Virus record (IMG/VR): IMGVR_UViG_3300007609_000018
Span: 1-63,984 of that record
DNA: 63,984 bases
From: a virus
Strand: one strand, 5' to 3'
Under the pieces are notes generated by a model. The model searched no databases and was not told the origin of the DNA. It worked only from the letters and a program-made list of their open reading frames with translations. Below, piece by piece: positions 269-59,115 of the stretch; position 1 is the first letter of the stretch, and each line of letters opens with the position of its first letter. The position numbers were made by a program, and so were the translations under genes.

Positions 269-847
269 TTAAAAAAGGGTAGGTGCATTTTTAAATCGGC
301 TCAATCTACCTTCTGCCATTTTAAAATACTTCTCGTTTAACTCACAGCCTATAAAGTTTCGCTCTTCCATTATTGCTGCTAATGCTGTACTTCCAGAACC
401 CATAAAAGGGTCAAAGATAGTATCACCTTGTTTAGTATTTTCTAACACCAATTTACGCATCAATGCCAACGGCTTTTGGCTTGGGTGGTCATAATATTCA
501 TCTTTTGCAAAACTCGCAGCTACTGTACTATTTATAAAGTAATGGTTATAAACTTTATAGGCTTTACCACCGTTTCTTTCTAATATAATTTCGTACATAG
601 AGCCTACACCACATTTTTTATCCCAAATATGTTTTGCTGTATAATCCAAAGGAAAGTCAACTTTAGCAGACCAAAAGATAATTTGAGGGCAATTATAATT
701 TTTAACCCAGTCTAATAATCCATCGTAATAATGGTATTCTTCTGCCATATAATCAGGGTATGGTGGGTCTGTTATAATTGCATCGAACTTTATCGTTGGC
801 AAAACATCTTCAAATCGCTTATTAAATAACTTTATTTCCATATTCAT
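269..847 (-). CDS. Small DNA amino-methyltransferase (adenine-N6 or cytosine-N4)
   Basis: A 192-residue SAM-dependent DNA methyltransferase. The catalytic motif DPPY is at residues 27-30, and the SAM-binding motif DPFMGSGST is at residues 146-154 near the C-terminus. This DPPY-before-FxGxG order is that of the beta group (DpnA/CcrM-like). It is much shorter than typical CcrM enzymes and has no obvious separate target-recognition domain, so its specificity cannot be read from sequence. No restriction partner is adjacent. It probably protects phage DNA from host nucleases late in infection. ATG codons occur at residues 1 and 3, and either could be the start. Confidence 0.88.
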   Translation of the reverse strand: MNMEIKLFNKRFEDVLPTIKFDAIITDPPYPDYMAEEYHYYDGLLDWVKNYNCPQIIFWSAKVDFPLDYTAKHIWDKKCGVGSMYEIILERNGGKAYKVYNHYFINSTVAASFAKDEYYDHPSQKPLALMRKLVLENTKQGDTIFDPFMGSGSTALAAIMEERNFIGCELNEKYFKMAEGRLSRFKNAPTLF

Positions 848-35087: not shown

Positions 35088-35921
35088 CTAACTCAAACTC
35101 TGAAAAAAATGCTTAACAACTGTCACAGTCCATCCATTTCCTAAAAGGTTCTTTCTTATATTCTCACTATACCCTTTTGTATAGTCTTTTGGAATACCTT
35201 GCAATAACTCCCAATAACTACTGTTTGCCATATAAAATTCATTGTTTTTTTGGTAAAATATACTTGCAGATGTCGTTTGTCTATTTCCTGTTGATGTTAA
35301 TGTTGGTGCATTTTTCAATTCACTTAAATTATAAGGGTTAAAGAAGTTGGGTAATTTTTTAAACATAGATGTTTTTCTTTTAACAAAAGGAACAGGGTTT
35401 ACTTTATTAAATAATTCACTACTGAACTTAATTGGAATATTCTTTTTTTCATAATCTGTAAACGGTATATTAGTCCAGTAATACCTTGGTCTATTTTGCC
35501 CGGTAAAATACTTAGAGTTTATTTTTATTGGCTCAACACCTAATTTCTCGTTAATAATATTTAGCCATTCTTTTTTCATAGAAACATTTTCTAAAAAAAA
35601 ATATTTAGGTTTTAAAAATTCTTTTGCCTTTACAAACTCAAAAAACAACTTACTTCTTTTGTCGTAAAAATTTAATTGTTTACCAATACTACTAAACCCT
35701 TGACAGGGACTTCCACCTATTAATAAATCAATTTTTGGTAATTTATTTAATTTAGCAGAACAAACATCCCCCATTTGTTTGGTGCTTGGGTAATTTCTCA
35801 AAGTTACTTCTATCGCTTTTTTATCTATTTCATAAGCAAAATAATTATCTATTTTTATATTTAATTTGTCTAAAGCAATTTGCCCACAACTGATTCCATC
35901 AAAATAGCTTACTACATTCAT
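35088..35921 (-). CDS. DNA (cytosine-5) methyltransferase
   Basis: 277 residues. The catalytic motif IV GGSPCQGFS has its PCQ at residues 72-74. Motif VI ENV is at 111-113. Motif VIII is NRPRYYWTN, a shortened form of QxRxR. The C-terminal conserved GNGWTV is motif X-like. The target-recognition region is short (about 170-225). The N-terminus MNVVSYFDGISCGQIAL is the SAM-binding motif I. It is one of three DNA methyltransferases in the window, and no restriction endonuclease is adjacent. Likely role: late protective methylation of DNA to be packaged. Confidence 0.9.
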   Translation of the reverse strand: MNVVSYFDGISCGQIALDKLNIKIDNYFAYEIDKKAIEVTLRNYPSTKQMGDVCSAKLNKLPKIDLLIGGSPCQGFSSIGKQLNFYDKRSKLFFEFVKAKEFLKPKYFFLENVSMKKEWLNIINEKLGVEPIKINSKYFTGQNRPRYYWTNIPFTDYEKKNIPIKFSSELFNKVNPVPFVKRKTSMFKKLPNFFNPYNLSELKNAPTLTSTGNRQTTSASIFYQKNNEFYMANSSYWELLQGIPKDYTKGYSENIRKNLLGNGWTVTVVKHFFQSLS

Positions 35922-36203
35922 TTTATTTATGTTTTATTTGCCCTCGTACATCACGCAGGGCGGTTTTAAAAAATTACAGACAGGTAACAATGTATATAAA
36001 AAATAGCTACTTTCAGTTGTCAAGTAATCCTTAACAACTGCTCTTTTATATCGCTACTTTACATACACAATAAAGTTTAAAAACACAGAGGCAATTCAAC
36101 AACCTAAACCAAACTTTAAAAAAACATGACGAAAAACCGCCCCTGTGTTACTCTTTTACTGCATATCCCCACTTCCTAACTTTCTTAATAGCGTTCTTTA
36201 AAT
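35922..36203. repeat. Structured 282-nt spacer with nested inverted repeats
   Basis: No gene was found. Outer arms GGGCGGTTTT (35958-35967) and AAAACCGCCC (36133-36142) are perfect complements. Inside, CAGTTGT (36014-36020) and ACAACTG (36034-36040) form a second hairpin flanked by A/T-rich, partly complementary sequence with two copies of GCTACTTT. It separates the methyltransferase from the small gene upstream of it. The layout resembles the hairpin spacers near 900 and 58,150. Confidence 0.65.
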
Positions 36204-39347: not shown

Positions 39348-40061
39348 GGCACAATTCAACGGATAAATAACTCATTCAGATAGAAAACTAAACTATCTAA
39401 ATTTCAATTCTAAGCGCATTAAATTACCTTACCTATGCTATACCATTACTAAAAACTAAACTCTCGATATACGCTAAATTTGATACCTTTTTGAACGTTT
39501 GCACGGACACGCTGACTGTTAAAAGAAATGAATACCGCTTAAATACTACATTTTCTTTGTTTTTTTACTTTTATTCTAATGTTTAATATTTAGGTTTTTA
39601 AATAGTTGTTTTTGTGATTGGTTTTTTTTCTTTTTTTTGTTTGCTTTACTTACTCTCTATGCTTACTCTATCGCTTCGCTCTTCTTTCCTTTGTTTGTTG
39701 GGGTTTGCGTTATGTTGGTTGTTTGGCTTATTTGCTTGTTTTTATTGCTTGTATGGCATTTACTTTGTTTTGGTGGTGGATTAGTTCAGATGATTTATTT
39801 TACTTCTTTAGTCGGTCCGTTTTGAGCGCTCTCTTCGTTTCCTTTCCTTACTCCCTTTCGTTCCCTTTCCCTTTACTTGCTTTATTCTTTATGTATTAAT
39901 TATTTATTTTAAATTCTTTTGCATTGGTTTTCAGTTAGTTACAAGTTTTTATAAAGTTTTTATTCTCGTTTGTTTAGTTTTTTGAATTGTATGGGCTTAT
40001 ATTTACAACCGTTAAGGCATTAAGCCGATTTTAATATTTATAACAAGTAAATAAAAAGATT

Positions 40062-46161: not shown

Positions 46162-46244
46162 TATACTTAATACTTTGGATAACACTTCAGTTAATATTTA
46201 GTATTCCTATAATTGTAGGGATATATATGGCGATTAAAAGATAA
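46158..46244 (+). CDS. 28-aa single-pass membrane peptide
   Basis: MIYLILWITLQLIFSIPIIV is nearly all hydrophobic, followed by GIYMAIKR with a basic end. Start overlaps the previous stop as ATGA. It is too short for the usual ORF cut-offs, but the overlap and the membrane profile make it a likely gene. A small toxin-like or exclusion peptide is conceivable. Confidence 0.5.
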   Translation: MIYLILWITLQLIFSIPIIVGIYMAIKR

Positions 46245-46250
46245 CATATT

Positions 46251-46427
46251 GTATAACAAATTTAAAGCGTATAAAAATGAAATTACTAATAGTTAATAGA
46301 CGATATTTAACAGGTGGTAAATTTTTTAGATACCAACGAATGAAAGGAGTAAAAGATTTAGGTTTTAAAATTGCAATTGGTAAATATGAATTTAGATTCT
46401 ACAAAAACTAGCGTATTTTTGTTATAC
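46251..46427. repeat. Perfect 10-bp inverted repeat around a small gene
   Basis: GTATAACAAA (46251-46260) and TTTGTTATAC (46418-46427) enclose the 44-residue gene exactly, with 16 nt before its ATG and 6 nt after its stop. The right arm abuts the left arm of a second flanking repeat. Confidence 0.7.
46277..46411 (+). CDS. 44-aa basic peptide in a repeat-bounded cassette
   Basis: Not recognised. Basic (about a quarter K and R), starting MKLLIVNRRYLTGGKFFRYQ. It has no overlap with neighbours, unlike the rest of the block, and lies within the inverted repeat 46251-46427. That suggests it arrived as a unit. Confidence 0.45.
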   Translation: MKLLIVNRRYLTGGKFFRYQRMKGVKDLGFKIAIGKYEFRFYKN

Positions 46428-46600
46428 GTTGTTGTGCGCTTTTAATTAATTGAAATGAATAACAAAGAAAAAATGATAGAACTATGTAAAAGCATGGTTG
46501 AATTAAACGAAAAAAGTAGTAGTGTCTTTGCTTCAATAAATAAAGCTATTTGGCAAAAAAAACTTGAATATTGGATTAGAGTTTAATTGCGCATAACACC
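46428..46600. repeat. Imperfect inverted repeat around a second small gene
   Basis: GTTGTTGTGCGC (46428-46439) and GCGCATAACACC (46589-46600) match at 10 of 12 positions as an inverted pair. They enclose the 43-residue gene. The left arm touches the right arm of the previous repeat. Confidence 0.6.
46455..46586 (+). CDS. 43-aa helical peptide in a repeat-bounded cassette
   Basis: Not recognised. Charged helix starting MNNKEKMIELCKSMVELNEK and ending in EYWIRV. It is bounded by the repeat 46428-46600 and preceded by an A-rich leader. Too short for standard gene calling; coding status is moderate. Confidence 0.4.
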   Translation: MNNKEKMIELCKSMVELNEKSSSVFASINKAIWQKKLEYWIRV

Positions 46601-46718: not shown

Positions 46719-46965
46719 TCAATTAGTCGTATTAACAAGTTTAGTAATAGACAAATTGGAAGATTTAGAAAACGATCGGTTTCCAAAGTTTGCATTAAAG
46801 AAAGCTGCAAACAATTATAAGAGAGAAATTGAGAAGTATATTAATACTGTTTATGATGAAGGAAAACGTCAAGATGAAAGCAATGCAAGAAAAGAACTTG
46901 ACACTTTACACGAATCAGTAGGTAAACTAGAAACATTTTTAAACGAAATTTATGGACCGATATGA
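46687..46965 (+). CDS. Helical protein, 92 aa
   Basis: Not recognised. Almost entirely charged helix (starting MTEQERVRHINQLVVLTSLV), possibly a helical bundle. Its stop overlaps the start of the DUF4406-like gene as ATGA, so the two may work together. Confidence 0.55.
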   Translation: MTEQERVRHINQLVVLTSLVIDKLEDLENDRFPKFALKKAANNYKREIEKYINTVYDEGKRQDESNARKELDTLHESVGKLETFLNEIYGPI

Positions 46966-47276
46966 AAATAGCATACATAGCACATCCAATATCTGGTAAT
47001 GAAGAAGAAAACATTAAGAAAGTAATATCTATTGTAAGGGAAATTAATTTATCACAAAAAGGAATACTTCCCTTTGCACCTTATATAGTTGATTTAAAAG
47101 CCTTAGATGATTCAAGCCCAACAGAACGTATGATAGGTATAACAAACAATCAAGAATACTTTATGCGTGGAATTATAGACGAACTTTGGGTTTATGGAAT
47201 AAGTCCTGGAGTAAAACAAGAAATAGAACTAGCAAAAAGGTTTAACATTAAAATAGTTTACAAAAATTCACTTTGA
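46962..47276 (+). CDS. Nucleoside 2-deoxyribosyltransferase-like protein (DUF4406 type)
   Basis: 104 residues. The N-terminal MKIAYIAHPISGNEEENIKK and the later FAPYIVDLKALDD and ELWVYGISPGVKQEIELAKR fit the Rossmann-like fold of the nucleoside deoxyribosyltransferase superfamily, in the small DUF4406-type phage branch. Such proteins cleave or swap the base of deoxynucleosides or related nucleotides, which would affect nucleotide pools or nucleotide signals. Whether the catalytic glutamate is retained (candidates in the last helix) needs alignment. It is the last gene of the plus-strand block and overlaps the convergent sulfotransferase gene by 9 nt. Confidence 0.68.
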   Translation: MKIAYIAHPISGNEEENIKKVISIVREINLSQKGILPFAPYIVDLKALDDSSPTERMIGITNNQEYFMRGIIDELWVYGISPGVKQEIELAKRFNIKIVYKNSL

Positions 47277-54152: not shown

Positions 54153-54180
54153 AGCTCTTTAAAAGTGGCTAACACAAAAT

Positions 54181-54244
54181 ATAGTGAATAGCCGATTAAA
54201 CATTTATTTCAATAGCCAAGTTTTAGGTGTCGGCTACTCACCAT
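54181..54244. repeat. Inverted-repeat hairpin in spacer
   Basis: ATAGTGAATAGCCGA (54181-54195) and TCGGCTACTCACCAT (54230-54244) pair at 13 of 15 positions. On the minus strand the flank reads TATAACGTTG directly after the RuvC-like gene's stop, a motif shared with other spacers here. Confidence 0.65.
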
Positions 54245-54254
54245 ACATTCAACG

Positions 54255-54803
54255 TTATAAAAACTTTTCTATTTGTTTATATTGTGCCGTTTTCATTCCT
54301 GCATGTGCTATTGCTATACAATCGCAAATATGCTCCATTCTTGCTTTAATTAAATCGCCTTTCTTATTCCTTTCATAAGGAAAGTTTGGATAATTAGTTT
54401 CTACCCACTTCATCATATCGTCTTTACTTGCATTTATTCTTCCAACAGTAGCTTTTTTTACCTCCGTTGGTGTTACTTGTATTGCATCTGGCTTTAATAA
54501 TGCTATAAACGCACAACTCAACCCGTAGCTTTTCATGCCGTTTGAACTTTGACTTCCACTTGGTGTTTCTGCAAATGTAATAATTGGCTTGATTTCTTCT
54601 GTTTTAGCGAATATCTCGTCTATTACTTGCTTGGCTCTAGATACTGTGTCAGAACTTGCTCTAATCTGCTTATTTTTAGTTTTTTCAGTTTTAACTAAAC
54701 TCCAATCTTGAGGTACAAACTTACCATTCTCTATTACACCCCAAACAAATCCTGTATTTGCCATACTAGGGTCTATTACTAAAACTCTTGTTTCTTTACT
54801 CAT
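54255..54803 (-). CDS. RuvC-like Holliday-junction nuclease
   Basis: 182 residues. The first acidic motif is VLVIDPSMANTGF with D11; the second is TFAETPSG, where the glutamate is in place; the last is EHICDCIAIAHAG with D near residue 160. These are the RNase-H-fold catalytic acids of RuvC. It would resolve branched recombination intermediates before packaging, together with RecT and the exonuclease. Other RNase-H-like resolvases remain possible, but the motif pattern favours RuvC. Confidence 0.8.
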   Translation of the reverse strand: MSKETRVLVIDPSMANTGFVWGVIENGKFVPQDWSLVKTEKTKNKQIRASSDTVSRAKQVIDEIFAKTEEIKPIITFAETPSGSQSSNGMKSYGLSCAFIALLKPDAIQVTPTEVKKATVGRINASKDDMMKWVETNYPNFPYERNKKGDLIKARMEHICDCIAIAHAGMKTAQYKQIEKFL

Positions 54804-57366: not shown

Positions 57367-57601
57367 TGTTACCTGCCATTATACAGCAGACAGGCTATTC
57401 CAAGTTTTTAATATTGTGAACTTATACCAAGCTCTATCAAAATAATAGCCTTTCTTTGCAAGTATAAGTTCAATCAAATGTTGTTCGGCTTCTTTTTCAG
57501 TTTCAAACCCTTCTTTAGGTTGTTCATCAATCGTTTTCACATCTCTACTACCAATATTTCCAACTTGGTAATAAACGTAAATAAAATAACGGCAGGTAAC
57601 A
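57367..57601. repeat. Perfect 11-bp inverted repeat around/into an accessory gene
   Basis: TGTTACCTGCC (57367-57377) and GGCAGGTAACA (57591-57601) are exact complements, 235 nt end to end. The left arm touches the stop of the 88-residue gene, and the right arm lies inside its N-terminal coding part. Confidence 0.7.
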
Positions 57602-57645
57602 GCACCTATATTCAATAGCGGTTTTTGTGGTTCATTTGAGTTCAT
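57379..57645 (-). CDS. Hypothetical accessory protein, 88 aa
   Basis: Not recognised. After a short N-terminus the sequence runs YFIYVYYQVGNIG, then an acidic stretch with EKEAEQHLIELILAKKG. The right arm of the 11-bp inverted repeat encodes part of residues 14-18. The stop codon lies at the left arm. The N-terminus may have been supplied by the repeat, so the ancestral start is uncertain. Confidence 0.5.
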   Translation of the reverse strand: MNSNEPQKPLLNIGAVTCRYFIYVYYQVGNIGSRDVKTIDEQPKEGFETEKEAEQHLIELILAKKGYYFDRAWYKFTILKTWNSLSAV

Positions 57646-57691
57646 ATTTTCTAATTTAATTTTGTGAATAATTCAAGTTTTGTACTTCTAA

Positions 57692-57717
57692 GTTCGCAAC
57701 TAAATATAGCTGCGAAC
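57692..57717. repeat. Perfect 7-bp hairpin GTTCGCA / TGCGAAC
   Basis: Arms at 57692-57698 and 57711-57717 in the 74-nt spacer upstream of the 88-residue gene. Next to it, on the minus strand, the stop of the 121-residue gene is in CTATAACGG, the motif shared by these spacers. Confidence 0.55.
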
Positions 57718-57719
57718 CG

Positions 57720-58085
57720 TTATAGGTCATTCATCTCCCAACCTTTACAGCTTGCAATTTTATTTGAAAGAGCAAGAATTTCATCGGTGTTGTAAACCAC
57801 ATAAAGTGCGTCATCTTCAAATAAGCCATCACGCTGACCGCATTCAAAGTCAAGTTTAAATTCAGTTTTTTCTTTTTGGCCTTTATCGAGTATATCAAAA
57901 AAATTACCATAAGAATTTGCATCAACATTTCCAATTAAATCTTCATAAAAAAAGTCTATTGGCTCATCTCCATTAAAAATCGTATCATTCTTAATTTTAA
58001 GCCCTGTAAAAATACAAGGTTCATATTTTGAATAAAGCGTTCCACTTGGGAGTTTATAAAATTCTTGTTTAGTAACTATTCTCAT
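57720..58085 (-). CDS. Accessory protein, 121 aa
   Basis: Acidic protein starting MRIVTKQEFYKLPSGTLYSK, a pattern I recall from uncharacterised Bacteroidota phage and prophage genes. The later part includes FECGQRDGLFEDDALYVVYN. It is flanked by hairpin spacers on both sides and not coupled to neighbours, so it looks like an independent unit. No function known. Confidence 0.6.
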   Translation of the reverse strand: MRIVTKQEFYKLPSGTLYSKYEPCIFTGLKIKNDTIFNGDEPIDFFYEDLIGNVDANSYGNFFDILDKGQKEKTEFKLDFECGQRDGLFEDDALYVVYNTDEILALSNKIASCKGWEMNDL

Positions 58086-58119
58086 TATTTCTAAGTAAAA
58101 CGCCCTATAATAAAGTGTA

Positions 58120-58216
58120 TAGCAAATTGTGGGCGTGTTACAGTTTGCTACTTTGTACCTTTAACTTAATGCTTTGCAAGCTGTTAGGTAGATACTTTTA
58201 ATCCCACAACTTGCCA
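58120..58216. repeat. Imperfect 14-bp inverted repeat in 154-nt spacer
   Basis: TAGCAAATTGTGGG (from 58120) and CCCACAACTTGCCA (58203-58216) pair at 12 of 14 positions. The loop holds further partly self-complementary sequence, including TACTTTGTACC. The 58,086-58,239 spacer has no ORF. Confidence 0.65.
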
Positions 58217-58239
58217 TATTCAAATCGTTACCCGTAATA

Positions 58240-58700: not shown

Positions 58701-59033
58701 CTACTCACTACCGTTAAACCTTAGTGGTTGCTTACCCAATAGTGCAATCATTTCTTCGGTTCGTTTCTCGTTATACTCTTGGTATTCTTTAGGTGTCATT
58801 AACTTATAACCATCGCTTTCAAATACTTGAAACCTTTTTCGTAGTTTCTTATTAATCCAAGAGTAATAACGTTCCCAACTATCTAAATCTCTTGGCTTAA
58901 ACATATCTCCTGCCGTATCAATATCGTCAAGTAATTCCCAAAGAAATTCGGCTTGCTTTCTGTCAATTTTACTACTGCCAACAACAGGTGTAGTGCATTG
59001 CTCTGTTTTGTTCTTTTTGCTATCGTCTTTCAT
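58701..59033 (-). CDS. Hypothetical accessory protein, 110 aa
   Basis: Not recognised. A polar N-terminus with KKNKTEQCTTPVVGSSKIDR, then helices (AEFLWELLDDIDTAGDMFKP, YKLMTPKEYQEYNEKR). It sits between structured spacers in the same style as the neighbouring genes. Confidence 0.55.
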   Translation of the reverse strand: MKDDSKKNKTEQCTTPVVGSSKIDRKQAEFLWELLDDIDTAGDMFKPRDLDSWERYYSWINKKLRKRFQVFESDGYKLMTPKEYQEYNEKRTEEMIALLGKQPLRFNGSE

Positions 59034-59071
59034 TTATCTAGATTTAAGTGTTACTAATTAAGTTCGTGCTG

Positions 59072-59115
59072 TAAGGTTGTCACACACCATACCCAAAACG
59101 TTATACTCAACGTTA
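59072..59115. repeat. Spacer with AACGTTA direct repeat
   Basis: AACGTTA occurs at 59097-59103 and 59109-59115, preceded by GGTTGTCACACACC, a short palindrome-like element. The minus-strand form TATAACGTT abuts the stop of the following gene and recurs in other spacers. Confidence 0.5.

Follow-up and report, generated by a model that had tools for sequence, protein, structure and literature searches.

Two small phage genes between inverted repeats as a probable single cassette of an integron-like system in Flavobacteriaceae and their phages

Two small genes stand back to back in a viral genome (IMG/VR record IMGVR_UViG_3300007609_000018, the whole 63,984-nt stretch being called the window here), each enclosed by inverted repeats, and the question is whether these are integrated cassettes, and if so of which kind, or ordinary phage genes between fortuitous repeats. 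We conclude, with a probability of about 0.8, that both genes belong to a single integrated cassette, part of an integron-like system common to Flavobacteriaceae and their phages, moved in the manner proposed below.

One cassette with two small genes

All four arms lie where the first-pass annotation of this DNA had put them (GTATAACAAA at 46251-46260, TTTGTTATAC at 46418-46427, GTTGTTGTGCGC at 46428-46439 and GCGCATAACACC at 46589-46600), the inner two abutting at 46427/46428; its ORF coordinates are likewise exact, and the overlap that it described among the surrounding genes is present. Its division into two separate cassettes did not hold. The first unit is a recombination site with a gene in its loop (termed S1) and the second is the gene of the same cassette; that is, the supposed two cassettes are one cassette with two genes, the second repeat pair is the usual pair of cassette-specific ends, and the arms touch because of the AAC/GTT rule by which these cassettes are delimited. 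The parts are:

46243-46433, plus strand: S1, attC-like site with an AAC left box, a GTATAACAAA/TTTGTTATAC stem and a GTT right box; left arm 46243-46260, right arm 46418-46433, 44-aa ORF in the loop
46266-46272 and 46410-46416, plus strand: copies of the 7-bp direct repeat AGCGTAT, which bracket the loop gene and may be due to chance
46277-46411, plus strand: 44-aa loop gene of no known family
46431-46439, plus strand: 5' cassette arm GTT-GTGCGC, by the rule of complementary cassette ends
46455-46586, plus strand: 43-aa cassette gene of no known family
46589-46597, plus strand: 3' cassette arm GCGCAT-AAC, complementary to the 5' arm at 8 of 9 positions
46246-46597 (352 bp), plus strand: whole inferred cassette, from after the S1 AAC through the second gene to the terminal AAC, its limits deduced from the AAC boundaries of other phage cassettes
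46598-46614, plus strand: right flank ACCTTTATATAATCAAC, which resembles (a resemblance only) the insertion target of phage Freya, ACCCCTATAACAAC, and is not a full site

The predicted empty S1 junction is AAAAGATAAC joined to ACCTTTATATAATC (also given as TATGGCGATTAAAAGATAAC joined to ACCTTTATATAATCAACTAAACC).

No Pfam or PHROG family matched the loop gene. Its product is 79% identical in amino acids to a protein of Tenacibaculum phage JQ (dN 0.14, dS 0.65), and the gene is under purifying selection; the JQ homologue, by inspection, is placed between sites, not in a loop, and just before it lies a site-like palindrome with perfect 14-bp arms, AACCGTCAAGGTAT/ATACCTTGACGGTT (L151:2800-3000). 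No phage homologues of the 43-aa gene were found. Phage P12002L has a 44-aa ORF (39530-39664 of L152) wholly within a site loop (39516-39709), identical in P12002S and unrelated to the loop gene of the window.

A family of palindromic sites

The 20-mer that spans the junction of the two inner arms, TTGTTATACGTTGTTGTGCG, has a single exact match in a 257-Gb collection of bacterial and archaeal genomes, in a homologous site of the flavobacterium Leeuwenhoekiella blandensis, where it is the right arm of a palindrome of ~120 nt (TGTATAACAATCAGTTGCGG ... CCGCAATTGTTGTTATACGTTGTTGTGCG). One phage contig has a 17-mer of the junction sequence, next to a gene resembling a methyltransferase. When two mismatches were allowed, the junction had matches in 17 of 199 genomes from the same family (27 places listed), and a reversed-pattern control matched six times; two of the genomes had several matches, some ~2 kb apart. 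The contigs with matches, from marine bacteria, carry long, densely packed arrays, each a series of single genes separated by palindromic sites, mostly of 120-250 nt. Of 148 genomes sampled from the phylum, 17 had sites at E <=1e-7. A DNA search of the phage collection with one phage site gave no match, nor did any Rfam family match the window or three array contigs.

Written in the orientation adopted throughout, the site consensus is AAC-N(2-8)-TGTATAA...loop...TTATAC-N(1-2)-TGTT. In an alignment of 62 sites, none of them from the window, the left spacer is the longer and holds a few bases that the right arm lacks; 94.4% of stem cells are paired, 173 two-sided changes were counted (60 in shuffles, no more than 54 in slid controls), and the stem covaries strongly. 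The sites thus have the hallmarks of attC, namely an imperfect palindrome whose R and L boxes pair and one of whose arms has unpaired bases. The GTTRRRY core is a different matter, in that only GTT is invariant and the next bases are cassette-specific, often breaking RRRY (GTTGTGC, GTTACCT, GTTGGCA). Outside AAC/GTT, the cassette ends are complementary over ~12-14 nt: arms matched at 8.8 of 14 positions in chromosomal cassettes (n=47; 5.1 when mispaired) and at 6.9 of 14 in phage cassettes (n=17; 5.3 when mispaired). Arm position 8 was mismatched in 98% of cassettes of the chromosomal arrays (L040-L083), with neighbouring positions paired, and this fixed mismatch could serve as a strand mark.

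A covariance model built from the 62 sites missed those of the window under default filters; with filters off it recovered, besides S1, six sites (E 2e-14 to 4e-4), all on the minus strand and all outscoring S1, which precede two DNA methyltransferases and small genes:

863-1000 (also delimited as 869-994), minus strand: S2, canonical site of the family and the window's best (87.1 bits, E 2.4e-14)
269-847, minus strand: N6/N4 DNA methyltransferase cassette gene after S2 (PF01555), arms GTTGTTGTAAGTA / TACTTACAACAAC
35980-36084 (also delimited as 35986-36077), minus strand: S3, compact site (39.2 bits, E 4.1e-5)
35088-35921, minus strand: C5-cytosine DNA methyltransferase cassette gene after S3 (PF00145), imperfect inverted arms of ~31 bp
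54165-54262, minus strand: site before a small gene (33.8 bits, E 4.4e-4)
57592-57727, minus strand: site (42.8 bits, E 8.5e-6)
58103-58235, minus strand: site before the 121-aa gene at 57720-58085 (38.6 bits, E 5.5e-5)
58974-59108, minus strand: site (39.2 bits, E 4e-5)

The 88-aa gene at 57379-57645 starts in the loop of the site at 57592-57727 (cassette arms GTTACCTGCC / GGCAGGTAAC), and the 110-aa gene at 58701-59033 starts in the loop of the site at 58974-59108 and reads on through its right arm.

S1 itself scored only 19 bits (E 0.31), the most degenerate site of the window: it keeps the site motif and has lost the inner stem, and as single-stranded DNA it folds no better than shuffles (z 0.19). 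It might therefore be a decayed remnant, that is, a former cassette site that lost its function and became fixed as ordinary phage sequence. Its bottom rank among the window's sites fits such a history, as do a right flank that falls short of a full site and the loop gene, which may be an insertion into the stem region bracketed by the AGCGTAT repeat. Against it, the outer stem and the cassette arms of S1 are still intact, and P12002L likewise has a gene in a site loop; we regard decay as unlikely, if a serious contender.

Cassette movement and the chromosomal platform

Cassettes of the family are precisely present or absent, and are shuffled, among sister phages. Danklef_2 has an empty site (...ACTCTAAC joined to TAAAAAGTATATG..., with CTCTAAC before the junction), where Danklef_1 and _5 carry a stretch of ~780 bp, comprising a site and a methyltransferase, flanked by AAC and TAAAAAG. 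Freya_9 is likewise empty (...ACCAAC followed by ACCCCTATAACAAC...), a position that in Freya_8 is filled by a single-gene cassette of 307 bp. A methyltransferase cassette of P12002S is absent from P12002L, with the same kind of boundary, and two metagenomic phage contigs that are 98-99% identical (L127 and L132) differ in cassette order at AAC. Homology between phage loci ends from -14 to +8 of AAC, a pattern that in part is conservation of the sites themselves. The precise presence or absence that the first-pass annotation had proposed to look for was thus seen in isolated sister phages for other cassettes of the family, with the AAC boundary that was predicted; for the window phage, a search via neighbouring proteins found no close relative (the protein at 46962-47276 matched eight distant loci), and gain or loss of the S1 unit itself was not observed. 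Its picture of single-gene cassettes with a gene in the loop was essentially right, given the AAC-bounded differences in sister phages and related contigs; the folding that it suggested found no support at S1.

Array-bearing genomes encode recombinases of ~355-410 aa, with nearby sites downstream in a single orientation (one exception, L055). An attI-like motif, TATAA(A)C-N-[AC]-GTT, lies within 260 nt downstream of 10 of the 14 recombinases, with 0.006 expected per stretch, and the first cassette begins at it. In the seven cases examined, the first cassette arm after the attI-like GTT is complementary at 5-7 of 7 positions to an AAC-ending arm (taking the best such match over 2.5 kb), and after most of these arms a left site arm can be recognised. 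At the level of the motif, this places a putative attI next to the recombinase. The best matches of the recombinase are XerA/XerC (NF040815), from which the chromosomal proteins differ by an extra N-terminal region of ~95 residues and by their place at the head of an array.

Might these nonetheless be plain integron cassettes that a classical IntI integrase captured? Qi et al. 2023 (PMC9892861), in the part of that work available to us, described attC clusters in phages, among them Polaribacter phage P12002L, and tested two P12002L attC sites with IntI1; P12002L_attC2 recombined with attI1 in Escherichia coli and P12002L_attC1 failed. P12002L has at least six sites of the flavobacterial family beside a methyltransferase and small genes, and the attC sites of Qi et al. 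lie in the methyltransferase cluster of that phage (likened by location, not base by base); the P12002L attC sites are members of the flavobacterial family, and attC cassettes in phages were therefore known already. That sites of the family occur in P12002L, and that IntI1 used one of them, favours the classical reading, and the failure of the other goes against it, as does the recombinase itself: relative to IntI4 it aligns in two pieces with ~21 residues between them, versus ~64 in IntI4 (residues 182-245), where it has no stretch as long. The IntI insert is missing from all 14 aligned recombinases, so the integrase that would define an integron in the strict sense is not the one found here, and in 12 array-bearing genomes all matches to IntI (TIGR02249) fell below the cut-off. 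We consider capture by a classical integrase quite unlikely.

Some phages carry the recombinase. In Freya a homologue (178 bits; L158:3840-4655, L159:3245-4060) lies directly after the cassette insertion target, and Danklef has a truncated copy (L155:41033-41488); the paper on Danklef and Freya interpreted the integrase as an indication that the phages may be temperate (PMC8776804). No homologue was found in the window, P12002L, P12002S or JQ. With six sites at E <1e-3 and no homologue of the array recombinase, the window corresponds to a phage CALIN (at least two attC sites, no integrase).

Gene polarity sets the two pools apart. Genes at phage sites (L084-L150) run one way (72:5 upstream and 48:4 downstream, counts that take in some related contigs and are not fully independent), and those of the chromosomal arrays (L040-L083), also in one orientation, run the opposite way relative to the site (57:3 and 49:2); phages are thus not simply sampling host cassettes. 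An ORF starts in the loop and is read through the right arm at 19 of 76 phage sites, versus 1 in reverse. These loop-start ORFs, at about a quarter of phage sites, often contain ..LYGV.. (L127:3155-3427, L084, L109, L111, L133 and others).

An integron variant and its meaning

The inverted repeats were dropped as evidence in themselves, since such pairs are frequent by chance: exact 10-bp inverted pairs at 100-250 nt spacing number 41 in the window versus a mean of 31 in dinucleotide shuffles, not a significant excess in so AT-rich a window. That count and the poor folding of S1 are what one would expect of chance repeats around two ordinary small phage genes. We nonetheless find chance improbable, because S1 matches the site family, and it is this homology, not arm length, that leads us to take its repeats as real; the window has two occurrences of AAC-N(2-8)-TTGTATAA with TTATACG(T/G)TGTTG no more than 330 nt after it, a pair that none of 300 shuffles contained and that is significantly beyond chance, and the flanks obey the AAC/GTT rule, from which the touching arms follow. 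Transposon-like or MITE-like insertions with terminal inverted repeats would also have repeats bounding genes, a reading that we reject as very improbable given arms specific to each cassette rather than each element, empty sites without target duplication beyond the shared AAC box, and units that abut head to tail in arrays.

In the integron-like reading that we prefer, a cassette would consist of a palindromic attC-like site and a gene with cassette-specific complementary ends (GTT-N6... / ...N6'-AAC). A Xer-like tyrosine recombinase, encoded by the host or in some phages by the phage, would cut at the AAC/GTT box, and the unit would be excised as a circle in which gene arms and site arms could form one long hairpin; the circle would then enter a different AAC box or a simple target of the attI kind. 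The loop of S1 contains a further small gene, and both genes would therefore travel in one move. The homologous site family, the complementary arms, the covarying stem and the chromosomal array with its recombinase and attI-like motif are observed; from these we infer that the flavobacterial recombinase is probably the agent, acting on a folded single strand through a circular intermediate, and that S1 is mobile now or was once. Against this reading stand the weak S1, which folds no better than shuffles, the want of a relative with an empty S1, of a homologue of the second gene or of a recombinase in the window, and the opposite polarity of phage cassettes.

The system resembles sedentary chromosomal integrons in having a recombinase, an attI-like site and cassettes, most with a single gene, arrayed in one orientation; as in them, too, the sites are palindromes of the attC type with additional bases on one of the two arms, and one site type prevails per genome (e.g. 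about 130 bp or 210 bp). It differs from them in a recombinase that lacks the IntI insert and is closer to XerA/XerC, a site with a fixed L box (GTATAA/TTATAC) and no strict GTTRRRY, cassette-end complementarity that spans ~12-14 bp, and an array downstream of the recombinase in the same direction. It is best called an integron variant by its working; in the strict sense it falls outside the integrons, for want of the integrase insert and of the GTTRRRY core. Tentatively, and at somewhat less than even odds, we suggest a separate or early-diverged integron with a Xer-type recombinase that lacks the IntI insert, having two cassette pools of opposite polarity (site after the gene in hosts, before it in phages) and a phage site loop that may double as a start region or gene.

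Integrons are reported to be very rare in Bacteroidetes: an earlier IntegronFinder survey had only integrase-only elements (In0) for the group, and one complete integron, in Salinibacter ruber, was reported later (IntegronFinder 2.0, PMC9024848). A search of open papers (preprints and most subscription journals aside) on integrons or integron-like arrays in Bacteroidetes or Flavobacteriaceae did not find the flavobacterial system, and the available part of Qi et al. (PMC9892861) has no chromosomal flavobacterial sites, resident recombinase or presence and absence in sister phages; in the open papers searched, the platform, the recombinase and the difference in polarity seem not to have been described. 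If the integron-like reading is true, a flavobacterial cassette system with a different recombinase would explain the swaps of methyltransferases and small genes between near-identical flavophage isolates, and would offer a natural way to find out what cassette recombination requires of an integrase, one that the sister phages Danklef, Freya and P12002 would make directly testable.
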